Shown here: in pieces, positions 5,080 through 64,000 of the stretch | Numbering within the stretch: position 1 is the stretch's first letter | Layout: each line of letters starts with the position of its first letter | Assembly: GCA_000010565.1 (NCBI GenBank) | Contig: AP009389.1 | Span: forward strand, 2,294,001-2,358,000 | Source: Pelotomaculum thermopropionicum SI | GTDB taxonomy: Bacteria > Bacillota > Desulfotomaculia > Desulfotomaculales > Pelotomaculaceae | DNA: 64,000 nt | Direction of reading: 5' to 3' | The notes under the pieces: model-generated | What the model saw: the letters and a program-made list of their open reading frames with translations, nothing else | What the model was told of the DNA's origin: nothing | The model's database searches: none | Position numbers and translations under genes: made by a program

Positions 5080-5358
5080 TTAGTGTTCCAGTATTTCTGT
5101 AACAATGTTTACCCGCTTCAATTCTTTTATGAAAGACTCACAATCTGTAAAGTTTATGGCCTGGCCGGTTTGTATTTGTGCCCGGCGGCCTACCCCCTGC
5201 ATAAATTCTTCCACCGTGTCTTCCTCGCTGAAAGAAGAATTATAAAGCTGGTTTACTATATCGTCGTAGGTTTCACCTTCCAGCCTTAACCCGTCTATGA
5301 ACGTGACTGTCAACATCGGATACAACCCCTTAAAAATATCCTCGGCATATATTAACAT
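5080..5358 (-). CDS. Small phage protein of unknown function (92 aa)
   Basis: Starts at ATG behind AAGGGGGA, giving good translation signals. The product is acidic (TYDDIVNQLYNSSFSEEDTVEEF) with a C-terminal FIKELKRVNIVTEILEH. No domain, signal peptide or membrane segment is recognisable. It lies between the amidoligase and GGCT genes on the same strand. Its stop is about 30 nt upstream of the GGCT -35, so it may be read from the amidoligase promoter. It could be a peptide partner of the cluster, but that is only positional inference. Confidence 0.6.
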   Translation of the reverse strand: MLIYAEDIFKGLYPMLTVTFIDGLRLEGETYDDIVNQLYNSSFSEEDTVEEFMQGVGRRAQIQTGQAINFTDCESFIKELKRVNIVTEILEH

Positions 5359-5383
5359 TTTTTATTCCCCCTTATTCTACCGT

Positions 5384-5414
5384 AAGGGCCGGGGCCTTTT
5401 CAACCCCGGCCTTT
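5384..5414. other. GC-rich hairpin between amidoligase and the 92-aa gene
   Basis: GGCCGGGG pairs with CCCCGGCC around a 9-nt loop. The T-run lies only on the plus strand, while both flanking genes are on the minus strand. For the operon it is therefore more likely a pause or mRNA-stability hairpin than a full terminator. Confidence 0.45.
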
Positions 5415-5423
5415 TATTCGGTT

Positions 5424-6287
5424 CTAGGCGGCCCTGCTCTCGAAGTGCTGGCGGCGTTTCATCTGGAATTTTACCGCCTGGCCGTAGTCGTTTTTCAGGC
5501 TTTCCCTGGTGACTTCCCCGAACAGTGTCCTTCTCAGGCGGCGTTCGTGGTTGAAGTTGGTTACGGCGTCCCGGTCGTGGTCTTTCCTGGCTATCCGTAT
5601 GGTTTCCAGCTTGGCCCTTTCGACAATCGCCTGGGTGAAGACTACCCAGTTGACTGCTTTCTGGCTGTTAACCGTGCCCCCGTGTTGCCTGAATTCCAGG
5701 GTCTGGTGACGGTAGTAGGCTTGGAAGTTCAGTTTATGGTAGCGGCTGTGGAAAATTTCGCCTATCCTGGTCAGGCTGTCGGCCTGTTCCAGCTTTTCGA
5801 TCTGCTCCCTGGTGATGGCCCGGCAGTATTGGTTGCCGTTGCCGCGTCTGCTGGGGGCTACTATTGCATCAAAGAAATTCTCGAATTTGTAGTACAGGAA
5901 GAAGATGTTTTTGAAGCTGTCTACGGTGAAGTCGGCGACGCCGTGGTGTACGTGGAAGCCGCAGGTCTTGTCGACCTTGGCCCCGGCCCTGTCCAGGGCT
6001 TCCATAACCTTCTTCAGTTCTTCCAGGCCATCTTTGCCTTTCAGCACCGGGCTTACCAGTTCGTGGCCGCCGGTCGCCAGGCCAGTACCTACGTTGTTTA
6101 CACTGGAATCGTATACTAACTTCCAGTGGGGGCGGCGGCTGTGGTTGTATCTTTCGTGCTGTACGTCTATCCCGGCGTTCCGCAGGGCTTCCAGCACTTG
6201 CGGGGCGGTGGTTCCGAAGAATTCAATTTCAACTCCGAAGGTCCTGTTTTCGTTGAATTCGAAGGTTCTCAGTTTGTTCATCGCCAT
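5424..6287 (-). CDS. Amidoligase family protein (COOH-NH2 ligase fold)
   Basis: 287 residues. Near the N-terminus FGVEIEFFG (about 17-25) is the first acidic strand typical of the Amidoligase_2/glutamine synthetase-like group. HELVSPVL, the GFHVHHGVADF segment (about 110) and LEFRQHGGTVN (about 203) follow in the expected order and supply metal/ATP-binding acidic and histidine residues. Family members are predicted ATP-dependent ligases that form amide or gamma-glutamyl bonds on small molecules or peptides. Start ATG lies behind AAGGAGG with 9-nt spacing. The gene is driven by a near-perfect promoter at 6350-6378. Neighbours with GGCT and GNAT folds suggest a make-modify-release pathway; the substrate cannot be read from sequence. 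Confidence 0.82.
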   Translation of the reverse strand: MAMNKLRTFEFNENRTFGVEIEFFGTTAPQVLEALRNAGIDVQHERYNHSRRPHWKLVYDSSVNNVGTGLATGGHELVSPVLKGKDGLEELKKVMEALDRAGAKVDKTCGFHVHHGVADFTVDSFKNIFFLYYKFENFFDAIVAPSRRGNGNQYCRAITREQIEKLEQADSLTRIGEIFHSRYHKLNFQAYYRHQTLEFRQHGGTVNSQKAVNWVVFTQAIVERAKLETIRIARKDHDRDAVTNFNHERRLRRTLFGEVTRESLKNDYGQAVKFQMKRRQHFESRAA

Positions 6288-7980: not shown

Positions 7981-8895
7981 ATGCCAATAGTTTCGATTAT
8001 TAACTACAAAGGAGGCGTCGGTAAGACAACTCTTACAGCAAATTTGGCTGCTGAATTGGCATTTAGAGGGAAAAAGGTTTTAGCAGTTGACTTAGATCCT
8101 CAAGCGAATTTGACTTTTTCATTTGTGTCGGTTGATTTATGGAGAAACAAATTTCAGGATGATAAAACCATAAAATTTTGGTTTGATGCCTTTATTGATC
8201 ATGGAGCAATAAAAGACCTATCGAGCTTGATAATTCGGCCACCTAGAGTAAATGATATTACTACAGCACCGCTGGACATTATTTGCTCTCATTTGGGATT
8301 AATAAATGTAGACCTTGAATTAGCTGTTATGCTTGGAGGATCATCACCACGCCAACATAGAAATAATTTCCTTAAGATATATTCCTTATTAGCAAATGGA
8401 TTAGCAAGTTTTGAAGATAAATATGATTTAATAATAATAGATTGTCCGCCAAATTTTAATGTTGTAACAAAAAACGCATTGGTTGCAAGTAATTACTATA
8501 TGGTTCCTGCAAAGCCTGATTACCTTTCCACCTTGGGTATAGAGCAGTTAAATAGACACGTTGAAGAACTTATTAGGGACTACAATAAATATGCTGTTGA
8601 GATTGACGACAATTATAATGAATTATCACCTAAGCTCCTGGGTATAATCTTTACAATGGTATTTATTAGAAGTGGAAAACCAATTTTTGCACAAGAGCAA
8701 TATATTGAACAAGTTAAGAGGACAGGACTGCCTATATTTGATACGCTAATTCGTGAAAACAAAACTGCATATGCTGATGCACCAGAGTACGGTGTCCCTG
8801 TAGTAATTAAAGGTGCTTCTGGAAAAACCTATATTGACGTCCGCTCTGAATTGGAAGAGTTAGCAGATGAATTTATCCGAAAGGTTGGTCTATGA
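7981..8895 (+). CDS. ParA/Soj-type P-loop ATPase, AT-rich cargo gene
   Basis: 304 residues from the ATG 9 nt after AAAGGAG; an ATG nine bases earlier touches the ribosome site and is unlikely. Deviant Walker A KGGVGKTT (about 9-16), switch I DLDPQANLTFSF (about 38), and Walker B YDLIIIDCPPN (about 154) are intact. ParA-like proteins form ATP-dependent dimers that move DNA or protein cargo. No ParB or parS-like partner is present. Instead the stop overlaps the start of a small gene (ATGA). Codon use and AT content differ sharply from the phage genes and match the DUF2971-like and coiled-coil cargo genes, pointing to transfer. Function in partition, copy control or defence is undetermined. Confidence 0.82.
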   Translation: MPIVSIINYKGGVGKTTLTANLAAELAFRGKKVLAVDLDPQANLTFSFVSVDLWRNKFQDDKTIKFWFDAFIDHGAIKDLSSLIIRPPRVNDITTAPLDIICSHLGLINVDLELAVMLGGSSPRQHRNNFLKIYSLLANGLASFEDKYDLIIIDCPPNFNVVTKNALVASNYYMVPAKPDYLSTLGIEQLNRHVEELIRDYNKYAVEIDDNYNELSPKLLGIIFTMVFIRSGKPIFAQEQYIEQVKRTGLPIFDTLIRENKTAYADAPEYGVPVVIKGASGKTYIDVRSELEELADEFIRKVGL

Positions 8896-9353
8896 TGAGT
8901 TGTTTTAAAAACGAACTTGCATCATTATTTAAGGTACTATCTGAAACAATTGGCGGCCTCACTGATGAACAATACAATAAATTAATTAATGGAAAGGGGA
9001 TGTTGCTCTATACTGATAATCACAGAACATCAACTGACAATAATAAGCAAAAATCAAAAGAATTATTTCCAAGTAGGAAAGTAATTAGTGATGCGGAAAT
9101 AGAAAATCTATCAAGACAAATTTCAAAAATTACAACTAGGGAAGAAGCTTATACCTTATTAACAAAAGACCTAAATATTAGCAAGAATGATTTAATAAAG
9201 CTTGCTAATATTTTAAAGGTTTATATTTCAAAAAACGATAAGAGGGTTAATATTATTGATAAAATCATTGAATCAGTTATTGGTGCTAAGTTACGCTCAG
9301 AGGCTATTAGAAGCACTGATTTAAAAGGAACTTCTTCTTACAATAAAGAATAA
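8892..9353 (+). CDS. Small partner of the ParA-like ATPase, possible SAP-like C-terminal domain
   Basis: 153 residues, overlapping the ParA-like gene by ATGA, so translational coupling is likely. The middle is polar and flexible (HRTSTDNNKQKSKELF). The last 60 residues (LNISKNDLIKLANILKV then KRVNIIDKIIESVIG) look like a helix-extended-helix of the SAP/LEM kind, often used to bind DNA; this is a weak resemblance by eye. It takes the place a ParB-type adaptor would occupy. The IS element begins 4 bp after the stop codon, so any further downstream gene has been separated. Confidence 0.6.
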   Translation: MMSCFKNELASLFKVLSETIGGLTDEQYNKLINGKGMLLYTDNHRTSTDNNKQKSKELFPSRKVISDAEIENLSRQISKITTREEAYTLLTKDLNISKNDLIKLANILKVYISKNDKRVNIIDKIIESVIGAKLRSEAIRSTDLKGTSSYNKE

Positions 9354-9396
9354 AATAGGGCTTGCTGAACAAGTTTTCCAATTTCACAAACTGCTC

Positions 9397-10281
9397 TTAG
9401 ATAACCGCATACACAGTGTAATTTTGGTCCTTATAAGTCTTCAAGATGGCGCATATAAAATGGCAAAAAAGAAGCCGGAGCCGGTGTTCCAAGTTCATTA
9501 CCAGGAACTGCAGCGCAATGACGCTCTCTGCTGTCTCTTTGAGGCGTGCCATGATCCTGGCCAAGCCGTATCTGCGCTTGCATACGCCAAAGCCGCCTTC
9601 AACAGCGTTGCGTTCCCTCATGTCCTGGTGTGCGAATTGCTTCTCCCGTCTGCTATCAAGTGGCGGACGGCCCAGCGGCGGCCCGCTCAGCCTGATGCCA
9701 TGTTTTCTGCAGAAAGAGAGGTTTTCTCTGGTACGATATAACTGGTCGGCCAGGACTGCTTCCGGATAGTGACCGTGCCGTTTCTTGTAGTCTTCGACCG
9801 CCTGTTTTAAGCCAAGACTTTCGTTGAAGGAATCCCAGCTGAGGTGATCGATGAAGGCGTATCCATCAACCATGCTAATGGCCACTTTAGCCCCAAACTC
9901 GGTCTCCGCCCTGGCCTTGCCCCTTACTATGGGACGCACGTGGGGCTGAGAGATGCTGACTATGCGATCATCGATACGGTGTGTCCTTGTCTGGTACATC
10001 TCCCGCTGCTGGGCGTAGAGAATACGAATGGTTTCCAGTTCTCTAGACTGCCGGGCGCTCAAATTGCCATGGCCATCACACTTTAGAAGAAAATCGATTG
10101 TGCCCAGGTTTCTGCGAAGGTACCCCAGTTGTTTACCGATAGCCTTACGAATAGCCTTCACATGCGGTTTTCTCTGCCTGGCGAACTTCAGGTAGTCTTT
10201 TCTCGCCCGCTTGCGGTAGGTACGGGGTTTCCTGGCCAGTCCGAGTTCCTGATTGTACAGGGTGTCGATCATCTTTTCCAT
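9397..10281 (-). CDS. IS5-type transposase, C-terminal frame
   Basis: 294 residues carrying the rest of the DDE domain: GAKVAISMVDGYAFIDHLSWD, the second Asp in VLADQLYRTRENL, and the catalytic Glu in RNAVEGGFGVCKRRYGL. It overlaps the N-terminal frame by 13 nt. The ATG at its start is in the overlap and need not be a true initiation site. Together the two frames are of usual length for the family, so the element may be active if the frame change is programmed. Confidence 0.83.
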   Translation of the reverse strand: MEKMIDTLYNQELGLARKPRTYRKRARKDYLKFARQRKPHVKAIRKAIGKQLGYLRRNLGTIDFLLKCDGHGNLSARQSRELETIRILYAQQREMYQTRTHRIDDRIVSISQPHVRPIVRGKARAETEFGAKVAISMVDGYAFIDHLSWDSFNESLGLKQAVEDYKKRHGHYPEAVLADQLYRTRENLSFCRKHGIRLSGPPLGRPPLDSRREKQFAHQDMRERNAVEGGFGVCKRRYGLARIMARLKETAESVIALQFLVMNLEHRLRLLFCHFICAILKTYKDQNYTVYAVI

Positions 10282-53134: not shown

Positions 53135-54991
53135 TCAGGCATTTTGCCCGACAATCTCGTTTATTTTCTTTAAGTACATCTCGGTCAGCGACTCGGCTAT
53201 TTCCATAGTGCTTCCCTCGCTGAAAACCCGGCATACAGGCTCGTCGGGGTCTGGCAGCACCAGGGCCCAGCCGTCCTGATGATAGACCTTGACGCCATCC
53301 AGCAGTTCCAGCCGGCCGGCAGGAGGGTCCTGGATCAGGTGTCTGATTACCCTGCCTTTTGCTTCCCAGGGAACGGGAACCTCCTTCTTGTCGACAAAAA
53401 ACAGCGGTATTTCCTCCACCAGCTCCGACAGCGGGGTGCCGTTTTGAGCGGCATAATCCAGCACTCTGGCCAGGGCCGACAGGCCGTCGAAGTGCAGGAA
53501 AAACTGGGACACCCCTTCCGCGCCTTCTCCCTGCACCAGAACCTTGTCCAGAAAATCCTGGAGGGCAGTTTTAGTCCTCACCACCCTGCCCTGGTACCGT
53601 TCGGCCAGCACCTCGATGGCTCTGGGCGCAGTAACGGGCACCACCACAGTTCCCCCCTGCTTTTTCAGAATAATCAGGGACAGCAGGGCGGTCAGCAGGT
53701 CGTCCTGGATTATCCGTCCTTTTTCATCGATCAGGATTAAGAGGTCTGCATTTGGATCCAGCACCGCGCCCGCATCGGCACCGCTTTCCATAACCGCACG
53801 GGCCATCGAGGGCAGCATACCCTGAAGAGTCCGCCAGCTCCGGTAACCCGCGCCGTCCCCGTCAGGTCCGCCGCTATCAGTAAAAATCCCCAGCTCCTCG
53901 CTCAGCCCGGCAATAAAACCACCTAAATTGTGCCGGTCGCAACTTATTACCAGCTTAAATCCGACATTCCTGATCCTTTCTTTGTCCAGGCCTTCGCAAA
54001 CGGCTTTAATATAACCGGCCGCCAAGCCGGGTACGGTTTCCGGCGGCACGATCCTGGCCGCATCCGCCCGGGCATAATCCTCCCTGGACAACGCGTTTTC
54101 AATCTTTCGCTCCATATCCCTGGAGATGTTTCCTCCGCGGGAATTGGTAAAGACTATAACAACCCGGTCGGGCGAGTACGGCGATACCTTGACGTGCACT
54201 CCCCCTTTGCAGCCAAGGCGGCGCACGGCGTAACGCTGCAGCGGCGTGATGCCGGTTCCCAGATCCAGAACCGCGGCTCCTGCCGACTGCATTCCGGCCG
54301 CCAGGGCTTCTTTAATCATGCGCGAGGCGGTGTAGTTGTCGCTGCTTACGGCAAGCCGCACCCCGGCGCCGCACACCGCTCCGAAAGCTCCGCCCAGCCT
54401 GGCGGCAAACTCGGGGGTGATCTCCACGTTAACCAGGCCGCTTACACCCTCAAAGCCGAAAAACCTCTTGGGAGAGCATGTTCCCCAAACCAGGCTCCGC
54501 TGCACCGTGGCGCCGGTCTCGACTACCTTATGCGGCCACAGCTTTACTTCCGGCTTTAAAAGGCTGTTTTCCTTAATGATGGAATCGTCGCCCACCACCG
54601 CCCCTTCATAGATCCCGGCCCCGGACTGCACCTGAACCCTGCTGCCCACCACCGCACCGCGCAGGGCCGCCCCGCTGCCCACGAAAACATTGTTCCAGAG
54701 GACGCTGCGCTTTATGGAGGCCCTCTCCTGAACCAGGCAGCCCTGTCCCATGACCGTATACGGGTCGATTCGCGCTCCGGCCCCAATCTGGCAACCGGCG
54801 CCGATCAGGGCAGGGCCTTCGATGGAAGCGGCCGGATCGATAAAAGCACCGTCCTCCGCCCAAACACCGGGAGAGATTTCTTTCCCCGGAATTTTAATCC
54901 TTACCTTTCCGGAGAGGGCGTCGTAATGGGCTTCGATATACTGTTGTAAATTACCCAACTTACATACAGAAGTAGCCCGTAACAAAACCAA
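53135..54991 (-). pseudogene. Nucleotidyltransferase/phosphomannomutase fusion, 5' part cut off by the mobile element
   Basis: 618 codons. From residue 14 (GNLQQYIEAHYDALSGKV) it follows the usual junction between the N-terminal sugar-nucleotidyltransferase domain and the left-handed beta-helix of fused mannose-1-phosphate guanylyltransferase-like proteins. Hexapeptide repeats (ALIGAGCQIGAGARI...AVVGSRVQV) fill 50-170 and the phosphohexomutase-like domain 200-600 (SSDNYTASRMIKEAL, ADLLILIDEKG). The first 220 or so residues are absent. The visible frame begins with a TTG (LLRATSV) from the abutting element, 0 nt from the recombinase stop. It probably became 3'-only through integration. Confidence 0.85.
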
Positions 54992-54994
54992 TCA
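54950..54994. other. Probable attachment junction of the serine-recombinase element
   Basis: Homology of the chromosomal gene stops around 54955 and the recombinase stop codon lies at 54992-54994. Large serine recombinase genes commonly abut their own att site. The core dinucleotide cannot be set without the other junction. Confidence 0.65.
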
Positions 54995-56542
54995 CAACTC
55001 GCCCGGCCTGGCCGCCGCTTCCGGCATGAACGCCGCGTACACCGTCACCCTCAAGCTTTCCCCGCGCCCGGCCACCGTCACCTGTTTTACCAGGGCGCGG
55101 ATCAGTGCCCTCTTCTGCTCAAAAGAAAGGAAATCCAGCCGGGAAAGAAAAGATTCCGCCTCCCTGCGGATCTCCCTGGCCCTGACCTCCACTGCCGCGC
55201 TTCGGCGCAAAGCCGCCTCAACTTCTTTCTTGCGGGACAGCAGTTGCTTTTCCCGCCCCTTCAGGTCCCGCAGGAGCTTCGAGGTCTTTTCGTCCAGGTC
55301 CAGCAGCCCTGCCGCCAGGGCGCTCCTGATGTTGTCCCGCCCCTTTTCCACGTCGGCCAGGTGCTTTTCAATCCGCTCCAGGTCGGCCCGCAGGTCTTTC
55401 TCCCGCGACCGCTCCCTGATCTCCCTGGCCAGCGCGTCCGGGTCGTTCAGCCACTCGCACACCCGGTCCCAGACAGCCTTTTCAACTATTTCAGCAGGCA
55501 CCCTTTTAATCGGCCTGCACCCCTGGTTTGAAGCGCCCGCCGCAGTTTTAACGCAGGTGTAGCCGCGCTCCCGCGAACCGCCGCTTTTCGTCTTGACCGC
55601 GCCGTGCATGGTGTTCCCGCAGTCGGCGCAGGAAATGAGCCCGGACAGGAGGTATTCTTCCCGCGACCAGCCCGACCACAGCCGCCGGGCGGCCTTGATT
55701 TTCTCCTGCGCCTTTTCCCACGTTTCCCTGTCGATTATTGCGGGCACCGGAACGGCAATCCACTCTTCTCCCGGCTTTTCTTTGACTTTAACCCGCTTTT
55801 CCGGCGGCAGGTGTTTGTTGTAACAGGTCCCCCGGCAGTCCCGCCGGTTGTAATAAAACGTCCCAACGTACATCGGGTTGGTGAGGATGGTTTTGACGAC
55901 GCACCGCTGCCAGGCGGGCCTGCCCTTCCGCGTCGGTATACCTTGTTCGGACAGCCTGGCCGCCACACCGTTGACGCCGATGTCCTCCGTGGTGAACCAC
56001 CGGAATATCATCTTCACCACTTCGGATTCGACGGGGTGGGGCTTGACCGTGCCGTTATCGTAAATATATCCGTAGGAATCGGCCTGGACCGGCAGCCCTC
56101 CCAGGCGGGCCTTCTGGAGCTTGCCCCGCACCGTCCTCTCCCGGATTTTCTCTTTCTCGTATTCGGCTATCGCTCCCCGCAGGGCGTAGAAAAGCCGCCC
56201 ATCAGGAGTATTCTGCCACTCGAAGTTAACAAATTCCAGCCGGACGCCCGCCTTTTCTATTTCGTCGGTTATGATTAACTGGTGGGCCAGCTTCCGGGCC
56301 AGCCGGTCGGGATCAAAACATACCACCAGGTCCAGTTGCCCGGCCTTAACCGCTTCCCTCAGCGCGGAAAGTCCGGGCCTGTCCAGCAGTTCTCCGGATA
56401 TGCCTTCGTCGGCGAACTCCATCACCTCACCGGCTCCCAGCGCAGCCGCCTTTTCACGGCAGGCCGTTCGCTGGTCGGGCAGGGAATAGCCGTGTTTCGC
56501 CTGGTCTTCAGTCGATACCCGGAGGTATATTGCGGCCCTCAA
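54992..56542 (-). CDS. Large serine recombinase (site-specific integrase)
   Basis: 516 residues. Catalytic domain with YLRVSTEDQ (nucleophile Ser10 and Arg8), FADEGISGELLDRPGL and VVCFDPDRLARK; recombinase domain (GYIYDNGTVKPHPVESEVVKMIF, ILTNPMYVGTFYYN); zinc ribbon CADCGNTMHG...YTC...GCRP; and a long coiled coil (about 395-480). All catalytic residues are present. ATG overlaps the upstream small gene (ATGA type). Integrates or excises the element in region D; its target is the adjacent phosphomannomutase-like gene. Confidence 0.95.
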   Translation of the reverse strand: MRAAIYLRVSTEDQAKHGYSLPDQRTACREKAAALGAGEVMEFADEGISGELLDRPGLSALREAVKAGQLDLVVCFDPDRLARKLAHQLIITDEIEKAGVRLEFVNFEWQNTPDGRLFYALRGAIAEYEKEKIRERTVRGKLQKARLGGLPVQADSYGYIYDNGTVKPHPVESEVVKMIFRWFTTEDIGVNGVAARLSEQGIPTRKGRPAWQRCVVKTILTNPMYVGTFYYNRRDCRGTCYNKHLPPEKRVKVKEKPGEEWIAVPVPAIIDRETWEKAQEKIKAARRLWSGWSREEYLLSGLISCADCGNTMHGAVKTKSGGSRERGYTCVKTAAGASNQGCRPIKRVPAEIVEKAVWDRVCEWLNDPDALAREIRERSREKDLRADLERIEKHLADVEKGRDNIRSALAAGLLDLDEKTSKLLRDLKGREKQLLSRKKEVEAALRRSAAVEVRAREIRREAESFLSRLDFLSFEQKRALIRALVKQVTVAGRGESLRVTVYAAFMPEAAARPGEL

Positions 56543-56733
56543 CGGTCGCCACCCCCCGCTTCCATCCGCTGCCCGGCCTGCGCCTGCTCAAAAAAGTCCG
56601 CCAGCAGGCGGAAGGCGTCGCGCAGGCGCGAATCGTCCGTATCGTATACCACAGTCACTTCAGGTTTCATCTCCTTCCCCTCCCGGTTGGGAGTATAACC
56701 CTTCCGGGGCGGTTTTAACCTTTTTGTACTCAT
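56539..56733 (-). CDS. Small protein coupled to the recombinase (64 aa)
   Basis: Stop overlaps the recombinase start. The basic N-terminus (STKRLKPPRKGYTPNREGKEMKP) is followed by VTVVYDTDDSRLRDAFRLLADFFEQA, a strand-helix unit. An ATG at residue 22 is an alternative start. Position and size would suit a recombination directionality or regulatory factor, but no family is recognised. Confidence 0.6.
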   Translation of the reverse strand: MSTKRLKPPRKGYTPNREGKEMKPEVTVVYDTDDSRLRDAFRLLADFFEQAQAGQRMEAGGGDR

Positions 56734-56806
56734 ATGCTTTTCTCCTTTCGTTATATTTCTACACCAGGTTGAAATTGTCCTATAACCCGGCGCTAAAAAA
56801 ACAAAA

Positions 56807-56827
56807 CCCCCGGCGTCAAACCGGGGG
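56807..56827 (-). terminator. Terminator after the 83-aa gene
   Basis: CCCCCGG and CCGGGGG around a 7-nt loop, then TTTTGTTTTTTT on the minus strand; overlaps the end of the 83-aa gene. Confidence 0.85.
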
Positions 56828-57067
56828 CCGTCCTTCGGCTCTCTCCTTTTTCCGCTCCACCGCTCCCCGCCCGGCCTTCACGGCCTCAAGGCAGGCGTGG
56901 AAGCAGGCCCGTTTCAGTGTCTCGTCCTGGCCGGGCCGGCGGCGGCGCATTTCCTCCGCGCGGCGGCAGATCGCGATCACCCGCCGGTTCGGGTCGCTTT
57001 CCCGGTAGGTGCTCTTCAGTAACTGGTCGCGTATGAGCAAGTGATCTGGTCTAGGCACATGGATCAT
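56816..57067 (-). CDS. Hypothetical mobile-element protein (83 aa)
   Basis: Begins MIHVPRPDHLLIRDQLLKS behind GAAAGGAGATGATCC. Basic, helix-rich, with RRAEEMRRRRPGQDETLKRACFHACLEAVKAG. No domain recognised. Own terminator; likely monocistronic. Confidence 0.6.
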   Translation of the reverse strand: MIHVPRPDHLLIRDQLLKSTYRESDPNRRVIAICRRAEEMRRRRPGQDETLKRACFHACLEAVKAGRGAVERKKERAEGRPPV

Positions 57068-57117
57068 CTCCTTTCAAAATCGGGCCGTTTTAAAAAGCCC
57101 TCTATAAAACGACAAAA

Positions 57118-57150
57118 CCCGCATACCCAACAATAACAGGGGCCTGCGGG
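57118..57150 (-). terminator. Terminator after the zinc-ribbon gene at 57288
   Basis: CCCGCA and TGCGGG pair over a 21-nt loop; TTTTGTCGTTTT follows on the minus strand. The flank AAAAGyCCTCTrTAAAACGA recurs near 61380. Confidence 0.6.
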
Positions 57151-57211
57151 CTTTTGGAAAATATTCCCCTTTATCGTATTTTGGACTGGGGGTATCATCA
57201 TACCGGCAAGT

Positions 57212-57234
57212 TTCACAAATCGAAAGCGTGACAT
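57212..57234. repeat. 23-bp repeat, copy 1, start of a larger duplication
   Basis: Core CGAAAGCGTGACAT after TTCACAA. With 57914-58070 it shares about 150 bp: a TATYATSATA tract, this core, a hairpin region and the last codons of a zinc-ribbon gene. Confidence 0.8.
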
Positions 57235-57287
57235 CCGGAAGCCTTGAAAGACGGGGCTTCCAGAACCAGAAAAATTGTCTAATGTTA

Positions 57288-57815
57288 TTACATGGAGTGG
57301 TGGGCCACTTGCTTTTTCCTCGCCCGGTATTTCCTCTCCCTGGCCTGCTCCGTTTCAACCTCCCGCTTGCACTCCCGGCAATACGTCTGCCTGTTGCTGA
57401 CAACGTACAGGATAGGTTTGTCGCACCGCGCGCAAGCCCTGATGACCGTATCCGCTTGCTCCTGCTTCTGTTCCTCCGGCTCCGGCTGGCGATCAAGTTC
57501 GTATAGGCCGTGTTCTTCCTTTCCACTGCTTTCCTTTTCCCAGGGGAAGGGCCTGTCGTACTTCCTCTTTGACTTTTTCACCGCGTTGGCGAACTTTTCA
57601 AGGTCGCCGTCCGGCCAGAGGCCGTTATGCTGCCGCACGTAAAAATCCCGCTCTGAAATGCCGCACTCCATGCAGCGGGCGTAGTCCAGGCGGGAATCGT
57701 GGCCGAACTCGGTCTCTTTTCCGCAGTACGGGCACCAGGCCCGGCCCTGCTTCAACCCCTTTGGCTCATAACCTTCCGGGGGCGATATAATCTTGACGGT
57801 CAATTTTAAGCACAC
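57288..57815 (-). CDS. Zinc-ribbon protein A of the mobile element (175 aa)
   Basis: Three metal sites: CPYC and CMEC (about 28-51) and CARC with CREC (about 128-152). Ends in the basic tail YRARKKQVAHHSM. Middle region is charged (KKSKRKYDRPFPWEKESSGKEEHG). No catalytic domain. Paralogous at the C-terminus to the protein at 58015-58353. ATG/TTG region at 57815 behind AAAGGAG. Probably nucleic-acid binding. Confidence 0.7.
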   Translation of the reverse strand: MCLKLTVKIISPPEGYEPKGLKQGRAWCPYCGKETEFGHDSRLDYARCMECGISERDFYVRQHNGLWPDGDLEKFANAVKKSKRKYDRPFPWEKESSGKEEHGLYELDRQPEPEEQKQEQADTVIRACARCDKPILYVVSNRQTYCRECKREVETEQARERKYRARKKQVAHHSM

Positions 57816-57888
57816 TCCTTTCTGCTATGGTTTTTCCTAAAACATCACCACAGTCAAGTTTCAAGCCTTTAAAACACCGTTGTTTTAG

Positions 57889-57911
57889 TTCACAATTCGA
57901 AAGCGTGACAT
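57889..57911. repeat. 23-bp repeat, copy 2
   Basis: Same core as copies 1 and 3; 50 bp from copy 3. Confidence 0.8.
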
Positions 57912-57938
57912 TTGGGGGGTATTATGATAGGGGTAAAC

Positions 57939-57961
57939 TTCACAATTCGAAAGCGTGACAT
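57939..57961. repeat. 23-bp repeat, copy 3
   Basis: Identical to copy 2 over the full unit and continuous with the long duplication reaching the 3' end of the gene at 58015. The hairpin AGCCTTG/CAAGGCT follows at about 57967-57985. Confidence 0.8.
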
Positions 57962-58014
57962 CCGGAAGCCTTGTGGCTCAAGGCTCCCAGAGCCTGAAAA
58001 ATCGTCTAATGTTA

Positions 58015-58353
58015 TTACATGGAGGGGTAAGTCACTTGCTTTTTCCTCGCCCGGTACTTCCTCACATACCTTGTGCGCGCCTCCTGCCTGCCCTGCTTCC
58101 GGTGTACGAAGCACCACTTTTGCCGGTTGCTGGCCGGGTTAAATTCGCGCTTGCATACCGGGCACGTCTTTTTCACCTGGCCCGCAAAAACCGGCGGGCG
58201 GTATTTTTCAACCCTTTGCCTCTCCAACTGCTCCCGCTTCCGCTTGCGCGCCCTGGCCCTGGCTACTTCCGGGTCGTCCCTGCACTCCGGGCAGTATTTT
58301 TGGGCGGTCTGCGCCGGCTCAAATTCCTCTCCGCACCAGCGGCACTTGATCAC
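58015..58353 (-). CDS. Zinc-ribbon protein B of the mobile element (112 aa)
   Basis: GTG start overlapping the upstream gene's stop (GTGA). CRWC and CPEC (about 4-26), then CPVC and CFVH (about 70-90), and the tail YRARKKQVTYPSM shared with protein A. A longer reading frame upstream (to 58599) is Gly/Arg-rich shadow of the 67-aa gene and rejected. Probably DNA or RNA binding. Confidence 0.72.
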   Translation of the reverse strand: MIKCRWCGEEFEPAQTAQKYCPECRDDPEVARARARKRKREQLERQRVEKYRPPVFAGQVKKTCPVCKREFNPASNRQKWCFVHRKQGRQEARTRYVRKYRARKKQVTYPSM

Positions 58354-58553
58354 TCCTTTGCCCCCTTCCCGACCTCCCTGACCATCGCCCGCACCTTCTC
58401 CTTCTCCCCCACGAACTGCCGGGCGAACAGCACCCCGTCCCTGCGGCGGTACTCCCCCGCCTGCTTCAGCCCGGCCTTCCTGGCCGCCTCCCATATGGCG
58501 GGGTCCTCGCTGTAGATGGCGGCCTTGCCTTCGCCGTAGTCCCAGGTCTGCAT
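58350..58553 (-). CDS. Small mobile-element protein (67 aa)
   Basis: MQTWDYGEGKAAIYSEDPAIWEAARKAGL behind AGGAGCTGGTTCC, with a C-terminal basic-acidic helix. Resembles small proteins of phages and ICEs that begin with a Trp-rich strand, but no family is named. Coupled to zinc-ribbon protein B. Confidence 0.6.
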   Translation of the reverse strand: MQTWDYGEGKAAIYSEDPAIWEAARKAGLKQAGEYRRRDGVLFARQFVGEKEKVRAMVREVGKGAKE

Positions 58554-58599
58554 GGAACCAGCTCCTTTCCTGAAATTTTTGTATTCCTAGTAAAAACAA

Positions 58600-58631
58600 A
58601 AGCCCGGCATTTCAAAGCTTCACCGGGGCTT
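58600..58631 (-). terminator. Terminator upstream of the 67-aa gene
   Basis: Minus strand AAGCCCCGG and CCGGGCTT over a 15-nt loop, then TTGTTTTT. It would end a transcript now separated by the IS. Confidence 0.65.
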
Positions 58632-58738
58632 AAAAAAACGCTAAAACAGCCATTTTCAAAAAGATTCACTTGCTAGCTTTTCTTCTACTCCGCCGAAAAT
58701 TCGCCGGATTTTCACGTGGCGTCCGAGGTTAAAAAACA

Positions 58739-60315
58739 GTTAGTGTAAAGTTATTGTAGGAATTTTAGAGGAAAAAAGAGAAGACATCACCGTCCTTAGC
58801 CACAGGACGAGTAACCCCAAAAGATTACCCAAAGAGGTGATGTCTTCATGGAAATGATTCGCTCCCTAACCCCCATACTCCTTTCAATAATGGAGACAAC
58901 AATTAATAATTTAAGCGGAGAAATGGATTTTAACACCTTCCAGGACAAATTAGCATCCAAGCTAAATGAGGCAGGTCGAGAAATTATACGGCAAGTTTTA
59001 GAAGAAATGGACCGGCAAATTAAGGAGGACAAAAAAAGGCGGCAGAATTGGCAAGTTTGGCGAAGCGGAGATACTAAAGAAATAGTTACCCGTTTTGGAT
59101 TAGTTGCCTATAAAAGAACCTACTACAAGCACAAAGAGACCAGCCAGTATGCGTATTTAGTAGACGAGCAGGCAGGTTATACTCCCCACCTGCGGGTAGA
59201 TCATAACGTAAAAGCAGAGTTGGTAGCCCGTGCAGCCGATCTTTCCTATCGCAAGAGCGGTCAGGTAATAGGAGAGCAGTGTGGAAATATTTCAATCAGC
59301 GGCCAGACAGTAAAAAAAGCAGTAGACACCTTTGAGCGGGCCGCATTACCGAACAAATTAAAAAAGCAAGTGAAGTGTCTATATATAGAGGCAGACGAAG
59401 ACCACGTAGCATGTCAGCGTGGGAGAGGTTTTGAGGTCCGGCTGGTATATATCCATGAAGGCTGGAGTTCGAATGGAAAGCGCCGCAAGCTTGAGCGGCC
59501 CATATACCAAAGCAGTGTAGACGAAGATATTAGTACTTTTTGGGAAAGAGTTTGGGAAGAAGCAAATAAGCTCTATGACTTAGAAGCGGTAGAAAAAATA
59601 TATCTCATGGGAGACGGGGCGGCCTGGATTCAAAGCGCAAAAGAAGTATTTCCCCAGGCAGAATTTGTTTTAGACCGTTTTCACTACATGAAATATGTTC
59701 GTATGGCCGTTGCGGGGGCACATAATAAACAGGGGCAAAAACTGAAGAGTGCCATACGCTTTGGGAATTGCGAAAAAGCCCGGCAGGTAATCCAGGAGTT
59801 AATAAAGGCGGCTGTTACTCCCGGTCGCAAACAGAGGATTTTAGATGCCTGGAGATATATTAAGAATAACTGGGCAGCAATAGCAGCTTTACACCGTGAA
59901 GAAAAAACAATTAGCTGCAGCGGAGAAAGTCACATAAGCCATATTCTTTCAGCACGGTTGAGCAGCCGGCCCATGGGTTGGAGCAAAGACGGAGCTAGGC
60001 ATATGTCCTATATTCGAGTTGCCCGGGCCAACGGGCAGTCTATTGCTGAAGAATACAGGCGGCAACGGCAATTCCAGCCCTTACCTGTTATTTATATCCA
60101 ACAGGAAAAATTAGAAAGAGAACGCAAAAAACTAAAAGAAACTCGTGAAGTACTTGATAACATCCCCGTACTGCAAGGGCCTAAAAATTATCTTCGGGAG
60201 GCCTTGAAAGGGTTGGCTTTTGCGTAAAAAGCAATTTTAACTAAATAATGGTCTTTTTATTTGTTCTAGGGTCGGCCGGTTGTCTTCTTTTTTCCAACAG
60301 TGTCTTGACACTATC
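58739..60315 (+). mobile_element. ISLre2-family insertion sequence with 9-bp target duplication
   Basis: TAAAAAACA flanks both ends (58730-58738 and 60316-60324). Terminal inverted repeats read GTTAGTGTAAAG and, inverted, GATAGTGTCAAG. About 1577 bp with one transposase. The exact duplication suggests a recent, still intact insertion. Confidence 0.85.
58848..60227 (+). CDS. ISLre2-family transposase (UPF0236)
   Basis: 459 residues, intact. Family segments: FGLVAYKRTYYKHKET, ADLSYRKSGQVIGE, VKCLYIEADEDHVACQRG (acidic catalytic residue), YLMGDGAAWIQSAKEVFPQAEFVLDRFHYMKYV and CSGESHISHILSARLSSRPMGWSKDGARHMSYIR. ATG behind AGAGGTG. Confidence 0.93.
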   Translation: MEMIRSLTPILLSIMETTINNLSGEMDFNTFQDKLASKLNEAGREIIRQVLEEMDRQIKEDKKRRQNWQVWRSGDTKEIVTRFGLVAYKRTYYKHKETSQYAYLVDEQAGYTPHLRVDHNVKAELVARAADLSYRKSGQVIGEQCGNISISGQTVKKAVDTFERAALPNKLKKQVKCLYIEADEDHVACQRGRGFEVRLVYIHEGWSSNGKRRKLERPIYQSSVDEDISTFWERVWEEANKLYDLEAVEKIYLMGDGAAWIQSAKEVFPQAEFVLDRFHYMKYVRMAVAGAHNKQGQKLKSAIRFGNCEKARQVIQELIKAAVTPGRKQRILDAWRYIKNNWAAIAALHREEKTISCSGESHISHILSARLSSRPMGWSKDGARHMSYIRVARANGQSIAEEYRRQRQFQPLPVIYIQQEKLERERKKLKETREVLDNIPVLQGPKNYLREALKGLAFA

Positions 60316-60438
60316 TAAAAAACAAAAAACTATTGACACCCCGCTTTGATTTGTATACACTTAAATTAACAGAGCTCACCACGCATTTTGACGTTTTAAA
60401 CGTCTATGCGGACCAGGGTGAGACTTTTATATTTCGGG

Positions 60439-61340
60439 ATGATTAGAGCAGTGTCTTCCTACCAATTTCCTAAACCCCCTCTAACATTTGAGCAACAAGT
60501 TGACCTGCTGAAGAGTCGTGGGTTAATAATAAAAGATACCACCTTTGCTAAAAAAATTTTAACAAATTTAAGCTATTATAGATTAAGCGGATATACCCTA
60601 AGTTTTAGGACAAACGATATTTTTCATACAGGCGCAACTTTTGAGATCGTTTATCAAATATACGAATTCGATCAAAAATTAAGGTATTTACTGCTCGACA
60701 TGATTGAAGTAGTAGAAATTGCTTTTAGAACACATATAGCATACTATCATGCACATAATTATGGTTCTTTGGGTTATCAAGAAAGTTTATATTTTGAGGA
60801 TACTAATTATCATAACGAATTTATGAACGAATTCAAAGAACAAATAAACAGGAATAAGGATAGAGAGTTATTTATTAAACATCACTTTGAAAAATACAAT
60901 GGTAACTTTCCTATATGGGTTGCCGTCGAACTTTTTTCTTTTGGAACTTTATCGAAATTCTTTAAGAATATGAAATCTAAGGATAGAGAGTTTATATCTA
61001 AACAACATTACGGATTTCTTCTGTATATACCACAAACTGGTTACATTCATTGGTTAATTTACGAAATATATGTGCCCATTATGGCAGGATTTACAATAGA
61101 GTCTTTAAAATAACTCCACGGCTAGGTACAAAAGATAAACAATTATTTGGACAATTAGGTATAGAAAATAATAAGTTATTTGCGGTTATCTTCGTTTCAA
61201 AATACCTAATCAAAGATAAAAAAAGATGGGCAACATTTTTAACCAACCTTCAGGCACTTTTTGAGGAATACAATGATGTAGATATTTCTCTAATAGGTTT
61301 TCCTAATAATTGGCATGAATTACTTCACGGCATTAGTTGA
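60439..61340 (+). pseudogene. Abi_2 (AbiD/AbiF-type) abortive-infection gene, frameshifted
   Basis: First frame to 61113: KPPLTFEQQVDLLKSRGLII, YYRLSGYTLSFR, FDQKLRYLLLDMIEVVEIAFRTHIAY, the typical Abi_2 N-terminal half. At about 61013 coding passes to the next frame, which reads ISSVYTTNWLHSLVNLRNICAHYGRIYNR, containing the R-N-x-x-x-H HEPN RNase motif, and ends at 61340. One base missing after TACGG explains it. As it stands the first product lacks the HEPN motif. AT-rich relative to neighbours. No partner gene. Confidence 0.88.
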
Positions 61341-61529
61341 TTCCACTACAAAACCCTTTCAAAAAAATGTTATCGGGCCTCTAAAAGTCCTCTGTAAAAC
61401 GAAAAACCCCCCAAACCCTTGTCTCGCCGTGGGACTTGCGAGTTTTCTGCGCGGATTGTTGTCTAAAAGCCCTTGATTTTAATAGGCTGCAATACTGGTA
61501 AAAAATGCTAGACAGCGAAATATAACCCC

Positions 61530-62069
61530 TCACCCCGCCTTCCTCACCACCGCCCCCGCCAGGGCAGCCACCACCCGCGCCGGGGTGAACCGGGCCACTT
61601 CCAGCAGGGCCGCCTCCACGGAAAGCGGGCCGCCGGACCGGTAGGCCCTTTCGCCGGTCATGGCGTCGTAGGCGTCGCAGGCGGCCAGCAGGAGAATTTC
61701 CACCCCAGGCTCGGCCAGGCCGTCCGGGTATCCCTTGCCGCCGGGCCTTTCGTGGTGGCCGCGTATCAAGGCCCGCGCCAGCGGCGGCAGGTCCGGGCAA
61801 AGCTCCAGGGCCAGGTTTTCCCCGGCCACGGGGTGGACTTTCACCAGCGCCCAGTCGAAGGTGTTCAGGGGATACTTGGTGAAAAGCTCCTGGGGCCAGT
61901 TTGTCTTACCCAGGTCGTGCATGTAGGCGGCCTGGGCGATCAGTACCGGGTCGGGTAGGCGCAGGAGCTTTGCCGCTCCCAGGGCCAGCAGCGCCACCCG
62001 GCGGGAGTGCGCCTCCAGGCAGGGCGGCGCGGTTGCCAGGGCCTGGCGTGCGGCTTGTAACATGCTCAT
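61530..62069 (-). CDS. HD-GYP-like metal-dependent phosphohydrolase
   Basis: 179 residues. AHSRRVALLALGAAKLL, the metal site AAYMHDLGKTNW, VKVHPVAGENL, and HHERPGGKGYPDGL, followed by LLAACDAYDAMTGERAYR. HD-GYP proteins hydrolyse cyclic di-GMP and related dinucleotides. It has no receiver or PAS domain, so input is unclear. GC-rich, unlike the Abi_2 gene beside it. The gap 61341-61529 holds no gene. Confidence 0.88.
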   Translation of the reverse strand: MSMLQAARQALATAPPCLEAHSRRVALLALGAAKLLRLPDPVLIAQAAYMHDLGKTNWPQELFTKYPLNTFDWALVKVHPVAGENLALELCPDLPPLARALIRGHHERPGGKGYPDGLAEPGVEILLLAACDAYDAMTGERAYRSGGPLSVEAALLEVARFTPARVVAALAGAVVRKAG

Positions 62070-62126
62070 GGTTTGAACGCTCCTTTCTGTGGTATAATTA
62101 ATTTAAAACTCAGGTGGTGAGATCGC

Positions 62127-62345
62127 TTGATTTACAAGCTGCCAGTGACAATCAAACTATATGGCAGGGAGTATATTGCCCGCTGTGAGCCGTTAAGGGC
62201 CACCGCCACGGGGGATAACCCTGACGAAGCGTTGAAAAATTTAAGGGAAGCCATAGACGAAATGATAAGGGAATTTGGCCGGGAAGAGGTATTTCAAGAC
62301 GTTAGTCCTGAAACTGAAGTGCGGGTGCTTGAGGTAAGCGTATGA
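62127..62345 (+). CDS. HicB-like antitoxin of a second TA pair (72 aa)
   Basis: TTG start behind GGTGGTGAGA. One HicB-like fold: YKLPVTIKLYGREYIARCEPLRATATGDNPDEALKNLREAIDEMIREFG. Stop overlaps the next start (ATGA). Lacks a separate DNA-binding domain. Confidence 0.75.
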   Translation: MIYKLPVTIKLYGREYIARCEPLRATATGDNPDEALKNLREAIDEMIREFGREEVFQDVSPETEVRVLEVSV

Positions 62346-62584
62346 GTGAGTTTTTGGAGCTGAAAAGGAACGAATTCGAGGCTTTTTTATTGCGTTTCAG
62401 CAGGCCCGGTTCGCTCAAGTTTCGCAACAACAAGTGGGTTGGCCTCAACAGAGAAGGGAAACCTTTCACCGTCCACGTAAAGCACGGTAGCACCAGGAAA
62501 TACCCGCCGCCGCTTATTAAGGCTGTAGCAAAGGACTTAAAAGTATCGCTTGAAGAATTCCAGGAGTGGCATAAAAATCTTTAG
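62342..62584 (+). CDS. HicA-like toxin of a second TA pair (80 aa)
   Basis: ELKRNEFEAFLLRFSRPGSLKFRNNKWVGLNREGKPFTVHVKHGSTRKYPPPLIKAVAKDLKVSLEEFQEW. The H-G-S-T-R-K strand-helix junction and the C-terminal helix follow the HicA plan, although it is longer and the catalytic His context differs from the copy at 17299. Confidence 0.72.
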   Translation: MSEFLELKRNEFEAFLLRFSRPGSLKFRNNKWVGLNREGKPFTVHVKHGSTRKYPPPLIKAVAKDLKVSLEEFQEWHKNL

Positions 62585-62604
62585 GCTGTCTTTAAAAGAC
62601 AGCC
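62584..62604 (+). terminator. Terminator after the second TA pair
   Basis: GGCTGTCTT, loop TAA, AAGACAGCC, then GTTT; strong stem, short T-run. Confidence 0.65.
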
Positions 62605-62662
62605 GTTTGGAGTGTACGGTATTTTATGTTTTGACAAGCCCGGCGTACTGCGAGGTCAGGAG

Positions 62663-62767
62663 TCACCCGCCTTTGGCGTAGTCGGCCATGTAGGAGAGTG
62701 CGGCTTGCCGGGCGGCGGTTTCCACGTGGGGGTTGTCGGTGAAAAGGGCGTGGCGAGATTCATATTC
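62663..62767 (-). pseudogene. 3' remnant of an unidentified gene next to the intron
   Basis: About 34 codons, ESRHALFTDNPHVETAARQAALSYMADYAKGG, then a stop; open upstream only to 62770. Composition looks coding but no family is recognised. It adjoins the truncated intron ORF. Confidence 0.35.
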
Positions 62768-62770
62768 TAA

Positions 62771-63121
62771 TCAATTTGTCGTTGTCACTGGAAACAATTC
62801 CGGCAGCTTAATTAGAGAAATTCCCGGCGGTTTATCCTGAGAAACAACAACCCGGTCTTTTACGGTGGGTATTCCCAGCGGGCGTTTGCTGCCGTCCGCT
62901 TTGGGAATCTCCACTCTTAAGACCGGCTGCGGTTCGTATGTGCCGGTTTTCAGTTCGTGATGAAGTTGGCGCAACCTTTCTTCCAGGTTCTGGCCGAAGG
63001 CTTCCACGGTCTCACCGTCTACTCCGGGAGCTCCTTTGTTGGCTCTAACGGCACGATAAGCTCTTTCAAGGTTGTCGAGCCGGTATACTTTGTCAATGAG
63101 GCTGTACCATTTCTTCACCAT
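62771..63121 (-). pseudogene. Group II intron reverse transcriptase, N-terminal remnant
   Basis: 116 codons: DKVYRLDNLERAYRAVRANKGAPGVDGETVEAFG and the RT motif LRVEIPKADGSKRPLGIPTVKDRVV, then an unrelated tail ending VTTTN. The catalytic YADD box, maturase and endonuclease domains are lacking, so an internal deletion has removed about three quarters of the gene. Confidence 0.9.
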
Positions 63122-63847
63122 TTCACCTGATTTCGCTATGCTTCTTCAGTCCTTTACGGTTTTGCGGCGGTTTCTTCCTGCGGGTTTCCCGGCGTCTCTA
63201 GCTCTGTGGCAATCCTACCGTTAAGTGCCGCAGTACTCCGCCTGAGCGGACGTTATGGCTAGCAAGTTCGTCACCGCCTGCCTTAACGTTCCCCTTGGCA
63301 TTTCAGCCTCGGTTATCTTCTCATCCCACCGCTCGGTTCATCAGTTGCATACTTTGGTTTATCTTCGCCCCTTCGCACACATAAAGGCTTTTGGCTCTTT
63401 ATGTCCCGCTGCAACATGGTGCAGCGTCCCCTCAGTTTTATCCTCCGGTCTGTTGCCAGCCTTCACTGGCTGAGGGTTAGTCACTACTACGGGCTCATCT
63501 GCCACCCGACACCACCTGTTCCCTCCCTTGCGTTTCCGCTTGTTTGGGCTTACCTGCCGTGACAGCAGGATGATGCCGGGCTTCCCCGGTTAAGTCTGCC
63601 TGCCTGAACTTGAACGCATCCGTCCTAACTTCTCAGGTTATCCAGCTTTCGGGCTTTCCCATATTATGCAAGGTTACCCGCCTGAGCAGCCAACACCGGT
63701 TCGCTTACGCTATGTTCCAAGTTCCCCCTTCGGCTTCCTTCAGACATCACCTTTACCGGTGACGCCCTTGCCTACGGGTTGTCTTCCCGCTGGATAGGCG
63801 ACAGGGTCTCTTTCAACCCATCGGCTCGGCAAACATGCCGGGCGAAC
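62771..63847 (-). mobile_element. Truncated group II intron (probably bacterial class C)
   Basis: Minus strand from GTTCGCCCGGCATG (63847) through about 720 nt of structured, non-coding sequence with repeated GNRA-like hairpins, then the RT start at 63121. Plus-strand ORFs here (63255-63473, 63779-63973) are shadows. Domain V and the 3' end are not found near 62770, agreeing with 3' truncation. It lies directly behind a terminator hairpin, the usual target of class C introns. Confidence 0.8.
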
Positions 63848-63854
63848 ATAAATA

Positions 63855-63880
63855 GGAGTGGGGGCATCAAGCCCCCCTCC
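63855..63880 (-). terminator. Terminator hairpin used as intron target
   Basis: Minus strand GGAG-GGGGGC, loop TTGAT, GCCCCC-CTCC, then TATTTAT and the intron 5' end. The remaining 63881-64000 shows no convincing gene. Confidence 0.7.
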
Positions 63881-64000
63881 TACTTACATCTCCAGCCGCG
63901 CGGGTACGCGCGGCGTAAGCCGGGTCGGGATGCTTCCAGCAATTTAATGACAGCCCCTTTTGGGGGGGGATGAGCCTTTTTCCTGACTGCCCCCATGGTT

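Follow-up and report, generated by a model that had tools for sequence, protein, structure and literature searches.

Two minus-strand genes lie end to end in the window, by which we mean the whole stretch of 64,000 nucleotides analysed here (C1:2294001-2358000 of Pelotomaculum thermopropionicum SI, genome G000, whose chromosome is closed in one contig of 3,025,375 bp). The upstream gene (54992-56542) encodes a 516-aa large serine recombinase with the Pfam domains Resolvase, Recombinase and Zn_ribbon_recom. The downstream open reading frame (ORF; 53135-54991) carries LbetaH and PGM/PMM domains I-III (Pfam) and has no NTP_transferase domain. A preliminary description of this DNA had placed a serine-recombinase element inside a nucleotidyltransferase-phosphomannomutase gene; its coordinates were right, and the Pfam searches bear out the domains. 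It had also held that the gene lacks exactly its N-terminal domain and that the recombinase stop touches the new start. The domain is indeed absent and a TTG start directly follows the stop, but this TTG is not the true gene boundary, which falls at a GG crossover at 54954-54955. An attachment arm of the element, read through, supplies the ORF's first ~12 codons (VLLRATSVCKL...), and the gene begins only at GNLQQY. From this junction to the stop, the 3' half (53135..54953, minus strand; Pfam PGM_PMM I-III and LbH) shares about 67-72% identity with the corresponding stretch of the intact gene in relatives from the family.

The missing 5' part had been expected to the right of the window, in an ORF ending just before a GNLQQY-type junction. 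A genome-wide search for NTP_transferase domains found it in a 249-aa ORF (C1:2618756-2619505, minus strand), which reads ...GYWCDIG and then continues with unrelated residues; the window fragment resumes at GNLQQY. The N-terminal nucleotidyltransferase half thus ends exactly at the junction (C1:2618846-2619499), on the same strand as the 3' half and 270 kb to its right. When the halves are fused at the GG dinucleotide, they form an 824-aa frame with no stops, in line with the proposal that precise excision would rebuild the gene. Finding the 5' half at a distance of 270 kb means that the preliminary description understates the case.

The gene is contiguous and full-length (~825 aa) in 50/60 genomes, two of these with one internal stop, in a tally made from search rows that counts G000 itself. 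In the remaining genomes it is split (3), broken near the C-terminus (1), cut by a contig end (3) or not found (3). As nearly all homologues are full-length, the missing first domain is not natural variation, and the explanation that homologues naturally lack it was rejected. Neither outcome that had been named beforehand as speaking against a split gene, a genome without a 5' fragment or homologues naturally lacking the domain, was therefore found. An assembly artefact is an unlikely cause of the split, given the one closed contig and two independent genomes with the same split.

The insert and its empty site in relatives

Between the two GG cores (C1:2348954-2348955 and C1:2618844-2618845) lie 269,890 bp, about 9% or one eleventh of the chromosome. 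The window holds the left 9 kb of this element (54954..64000), as delimited by empty-site comparison and attL/attR, and the element runs on to C1:2618845, 260 kb past the window. Eight relatives have an empty site (G017, G003, G013, G018, G012, G008, G030 and G044). In these genomes the gene is flanked on one side by the GT/leu/gat genes that sit beyond the N-half in G000, and on the other by the GH57 branching enzyme that sits beyond the C-half, together with its neighbours. Since both flanks adjoin in eight relatives, the 269,890 bp are an insertion; queries taken from within the 270 kb had almost no matches in the relatives' empty-site stretches.

A chromosomal rearrangement across a small element might also have left a 270-kb gap, and the many transposase-like ORFs, long repeats and heterogeneous GC (42% to 60%) in the middle of the element would fit such a history. 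We regard it as very unlikely, however, as the empty-site synteny joins both flanks, matching attP halves lie exactly at both ends (see below), and backbone genes inside the region are homologous to those of a 106-kb element in another genome. In addition, ARAGORN finds no tRNA across the 320 kb region, and no housekeeping genes were recognised by eye between the element ends. The heterogeneous GC and the many transposase-like ORFs suggest instead that a single element may have grown, and was probably enlarged, by nested insertions.

Attachment sites

The P arm of attL on the element side (54956..54990, minus strand) reads TGGTTTTGTTACGGGCTACTTCTGTATGTAAGTTG. Within it, TACTTCTGTATGTAA is identical in the element of a second genome, G005, and the arm is an inverted repeat of the one at the element's other end. 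The crossover dinucleotide of attL (54954..54955, minus strand) is GG, as is its partner at the right end, outside the window. The reconstructed attP of the G000 element is GGCTACTTCTGTATGTAA-GTTG[GG]CACG-CTAAAAACAAAGATAGC, an inverted repeat about GG, and the attachment sites of the elements in G005 and in a third genome, G054, have the same design. In all three, the GG at the crossover centres symmetric arms and restores the reading frame. P and P' match as inverted repeats at 13/24 positions in G000, 17/24 in G005 and 19/24 in G054, and the same symmetry is reached by 98/43,219, 1/14,148 and 0/1,570 GG-anchored sites, respectively; the arm symmetry of G000 alone (13/24) is modest. The right-end arm of G000 is similar to the left arm of its own element as well as to the right arm in G005. 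Because the real right end outscores every other one of 43,248 GG-anchored sites when its own P arm and the G005 P' arm together serve as the reference, the two ends, 270 kb apart, are read from their sequences as the halves of one symmetric attP. With a common 2-bp core and symmetric P arms, attL and attR are those of a large serine recombinase element, and the recombinase, with its Resolvase, Recombinase and zinc-ribbon domains, lies at the element end, adjoining attL upstream of the 3' gene half. A search of viral contigs for the assembled attP circle found none; a P-arm pattern match in viral contig L214 was dismissed as coincidental, since the DNA there is AT-rich and holds neither the recombinase nor the gene.

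The recombinase and its sister elements

The same gene is split at the equivalent GG in both other genomes. G005, from the same bacterial family as G000, carries a 106,306 bp element with a recombinase 75% identical to that of G000; in G054, a MAG (record DFNH01000024, UBA3572), the element measures 8,844 bp and its recombinase is 59% identical. The three recombinases form one clade (support 0.99) that is sister to the recombinases of sigK-intervening (skin) elements, which upholds the likeness to elements of spore formers that had been drawn from the window alone. The skin recombinases in the sister group adjoin sigK halves, and G000's own skin recombinase is among them. Insertion has thus recurred at one site whose attB is empty in relatives. 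The gene tree places G005 as the sister of G013, whose copy is intact, and therefore either the insertions were independent or losses were precise. A search with the recombinase among 113 genomes of the class found no further cases at E 1e-110, a cut-off too strict for recombinases as distant as that of G054. In plasmid and phage collections, the recombinases among the matches listed were all distant, at about 39% identity or lower.

Two related loci were noted. In G000, a skin-type element about 4.2 kb long interrupts sigK (locus L101, C1:1155001-1175000; 5138-5494 and 9741-10097 on the minus strand, 8209-9717 on the plus strand); the recombinase of this skin-type element is 54% identical to that of the 270-kb element. 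In G031 (L109, 7927-10086), a related recombinase abuts a LigD primase-polymerase gene fragment, possibly marking a further gene-intervening element.

Gene content of the element

The right part of the G000 element encodes a Prim-Pol, a DnaB-like helicase and a TraG/VirD4 coupling protein of type IV secretion systems (T4SS; PF02534, 5.5e-54 in G000 and 1.2e-35 in G005). The coupling protein and several of its neighbours have homologues in the 106-kb G005 element, which also carries AAA_10 (VirB4-like) and VirB11-like T2SSE ATPases and ParA; among the part of the G000 element's ORFs that was scanned, no VirB4- or VirB11-type ATPase, relaxase or complete T4SS was identified. On the strength of the T4SS coupling protein found in each, the 270-kb and 106-kb elements resemble integrative conjugative elements (ICEs).

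The cargo comprises a YcaO/NHLP peptide cluster, a glycyl-radical enzyme, an aldehyde oxidoreductase, Hma-like and AbiD defence genes and a spore photoproduct lyase. Many NHLP-type leader peptides and a YcaO cyclodehydratase are encoded at C1 about 2384-2462 kb, and 12 such leader peptides have been described in this species (PMC2887384). As it lies inside the element, this peptide-natural-product cluster looks like mobile cargo. The low-GC (about 42%) catabolic segment at C1:2513-2550 kb, with the glycyl-radical enzyme, an aldehyde ferredoxin oxidoreductase and a MutL-like protein, is probably a separate acquisition within the element. An HmaB/HmaC-like defence gene pair occupies L018 4109-9133 (C1:2504109-2509133). 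At 60406-61340 of the window, an AbiD/Abi_2 gene is followed by an overlapping ORF in another frame and is possibly frameshifted. Two similar gene sets of tyrosine-recombinase type (C1:2399031-2402501 and C1:2569214-2572693, the latter being the set in which Phage_integrase domains were tested) lie inside the element in the same orientation, 170 kb apart. Reverse-transcriptase-like ORFs, of group II intron type by eye, are found at 62771-63121 of the window, at C1:2583157-2584428 and in G005 at C3:236145-237419; the latter two, from two elements, are 85% identical. The spore photoproduct lyase gene in the cargo (C1:2370604-2371614) has a second copy at C1:210938-211948. The argument that the only such lyase lies in the element, which would confine excision to the mother cell, was accordingly rejected.

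The recombinase operon

A small ORF of 64 aa (56539..56733, minus strand) overlaps the recombinase start, and its homologues precede the recombinase in G005, G054 and sigK-skin elements. It has no match in Pfam or NCBIfam and is perhaps an accessory protein or recombination directionality factor (RDF). Between this ORF and a terminator-like hairpin recognised by eye lies a promoter-like motif, ATAGGACAA-N12-GTAGAAATA (56754..56783, minus strand), which resembles the sigma-H consensus RNAGGAWWW / RNNGAATWW (PMC8510167). The pattern RTAGGAYAA-N12-GTAGAAW has exactly two matches in the genome, one upstream of the 270-kb element's recombinase and the other upstream of the sigK-skin recombinase. 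Related motifs with a constant 12-base spacer precede the recombinases of many relatives, many skin recombinases included, and the motif is read as a predicted conserved promoter.

These observations bear on whether the insertion is developmentally controlled, that is, excised in the mother cell at sporulation with the sugar-nucleotide enzyme made only then, as with SPbeta and spsM in Bacillus subtilis. We hold this to be possible but less likely than not, on circumstantial evidence. The sigma-H-like motif common to both G000 recombinase operons and many skin recombinases argues for it, as do the sister relationship to skin recombinases, the interruption of sigK in the same genome by such an element, purifying selection on both gene halves, and the precedent of the same layout at a polysaccharide gene (PMC4191935). 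The sigma assignment, however, is by consensus only, and no sporulation promoter is recognisable ahead of the target operon. Moreover, the skin recombinase of C. difficile is sigma-A-driven and an RDF sets the timing of excision (PMC5025042), which makes a recombinase promoter weak evidence for developmental control.

The target operon and selection on the gene halves

The split gene forms an operon with genes for a CBM53/CBM25 protein and a glycosyltransferase with starch-synthase-like matches, and the GH57 branching enzyme gene lies on its far side. From this setting, the gene likely supplies NDP-sugar for alpha-glucan (glycogen-like) synthesis. No sigma-E-, K-, F- or G-like promoter was recognised upstream of the operon. 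The dN/dS values of the split halves are like those of intact pairs (N about 0.03-0.08, C about 0.11-0.17), with many dS values near saturation. Both halves are intact and dN/dS is unrelaxed in three separate genomes (G000, G005 and G054), and the recombinase and attachment sites are kept in all. The halves are thus maintained either by excision or by a separate function, or the insertion is young.

A young insertion would be expected if a plain ICE merely used the gene as its attB, without programmed excision, leaving the gene lost or impaired. This account, which we place a little below an even chance, gains from the conjugation and replication genes of the element, its large accessory cargo including RiPP and defence genes, and the scattered insertions, with G005 next to the intact G013 in the gene tree. 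Against it stand the intact halves with unrelaxed dN/dS and the preserved recombinase and attachment sites in all three elements. Alternatively, the halves could act as separate proteins, in which case the split would be harmless and excision unneeded. The break does fall between whole domains, the N-half spans nearly the entire NTP_transferase model, and low dN/dS is kept in each half. At the junction, however, neither a ribosome-binding site nor a start is convincing for the C-half, no start codon of the C-half overlaps the recombinase stop in G005 or G054, and nearly all relatives retain the full-length fusion, all of which make separate function unlikely.

Discussion

Together, these results describe what is very probably an integrative element of 269,890 bp that belongs to the serine-integrase type and carries conjugation genes. 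Its insertion point is the GG of a glycine codon, in a gene that fuses an NDP-sugar pyrophosphorylase to a phosphoglucomutase/phosphomannomutase. In such a scheme, the recombinase would have integrated a circular element by recombining attP with the gene as attB. It could also excise the element, probably helped by a directionality factor, which would rebuild the gene and release the circle. Because the recombinase is intact, the attachment sites match and the halves are intact, the element looks excision-competent. Both halves of the host gene are retained and are restored in frame on joining, as in gene-intervening elements. Excision might take place in a minority or terminal cell type, such as the mother cell at sporulation, which is possible though on the doubtful side; that the recombinase operon shares a promoter motif with the genome's own skin recombinase makes it a live possibility.

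Most of the known gene-intervening elements are remnants of phages located in sporulation genes. In Bacillus subtilis, the SPbeta prophage (SprA/SprB) is a 134 kb insert in spsM (PMC4191935). There, as here, a polysaccharide-synthesis gene is split and the serine recombinase gene directly precedes its 3' half; the insert is very large, and a precise join restores the gene. The P. thermopropionicum element differs in its 270 kb, its conjugative rather than phage genes, its NDP-sugar pyrophosphorylase-PMM target and its recombinase. By analogy, it may function like SPbeta in spsM as an unusually large gene-intervening element, for which sporulation control is plausible. The sigK skin elements of B. 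subtilis and C. difficile (CD1231/CD1234) use SpoIVCA-type recombinases (PMC5025042). Sister recombinases, a small upstream ORF and the promoter motif link our element to skin elements, as judged against the sigK-sited recombinases of relatives. Unlike them, it has another target gene and attachment site, is far larger, and interrupts a metabolic gene rather than a known sporulation gene. The gin element in gerE of Bacillus cereus ATCC10987 is likewise a non-phage gene-intervening element excised by a serine recombinase, but it measures 28.6 kb and has three recombinases and a 9-bp core repeat; conjugation genes are not mentioned in the part of that paper on which this comparison draws (PMC5595907). 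With serine-integrase ICEs, the element shares a single serine integrase at one end, a T4SS coupling protein, replication genes and cargo, although in G000 it breaks into a conserved gene at mid-length and leaves both halves intact.

The fullest version of the developmental account is doubtful. It holds that a sigma-H-like programme, common to this 270-kb conjugative element and the skin element, directs excision in the mother cell and so switches on sugar-nucleotide or alpha-glucan synthesis during sporulation. If developmental excision were true, this would be the largest gene-intervening element known to us, and a conjugative one. In each of three genomes (G000, G005 and G054), a member of this family, with sizes from 8.8 to 270 kb, occupies the same codon; the family ties skin-type recombinases to conjugative elements and targets a metabolic gene. 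With sister recombinases located in sigK and one bordering a ligD fragment, it suggests how skin-type recombinases jump to new target genes, and it allows a direct test of whether the departure of a giant mobile element is programmed.
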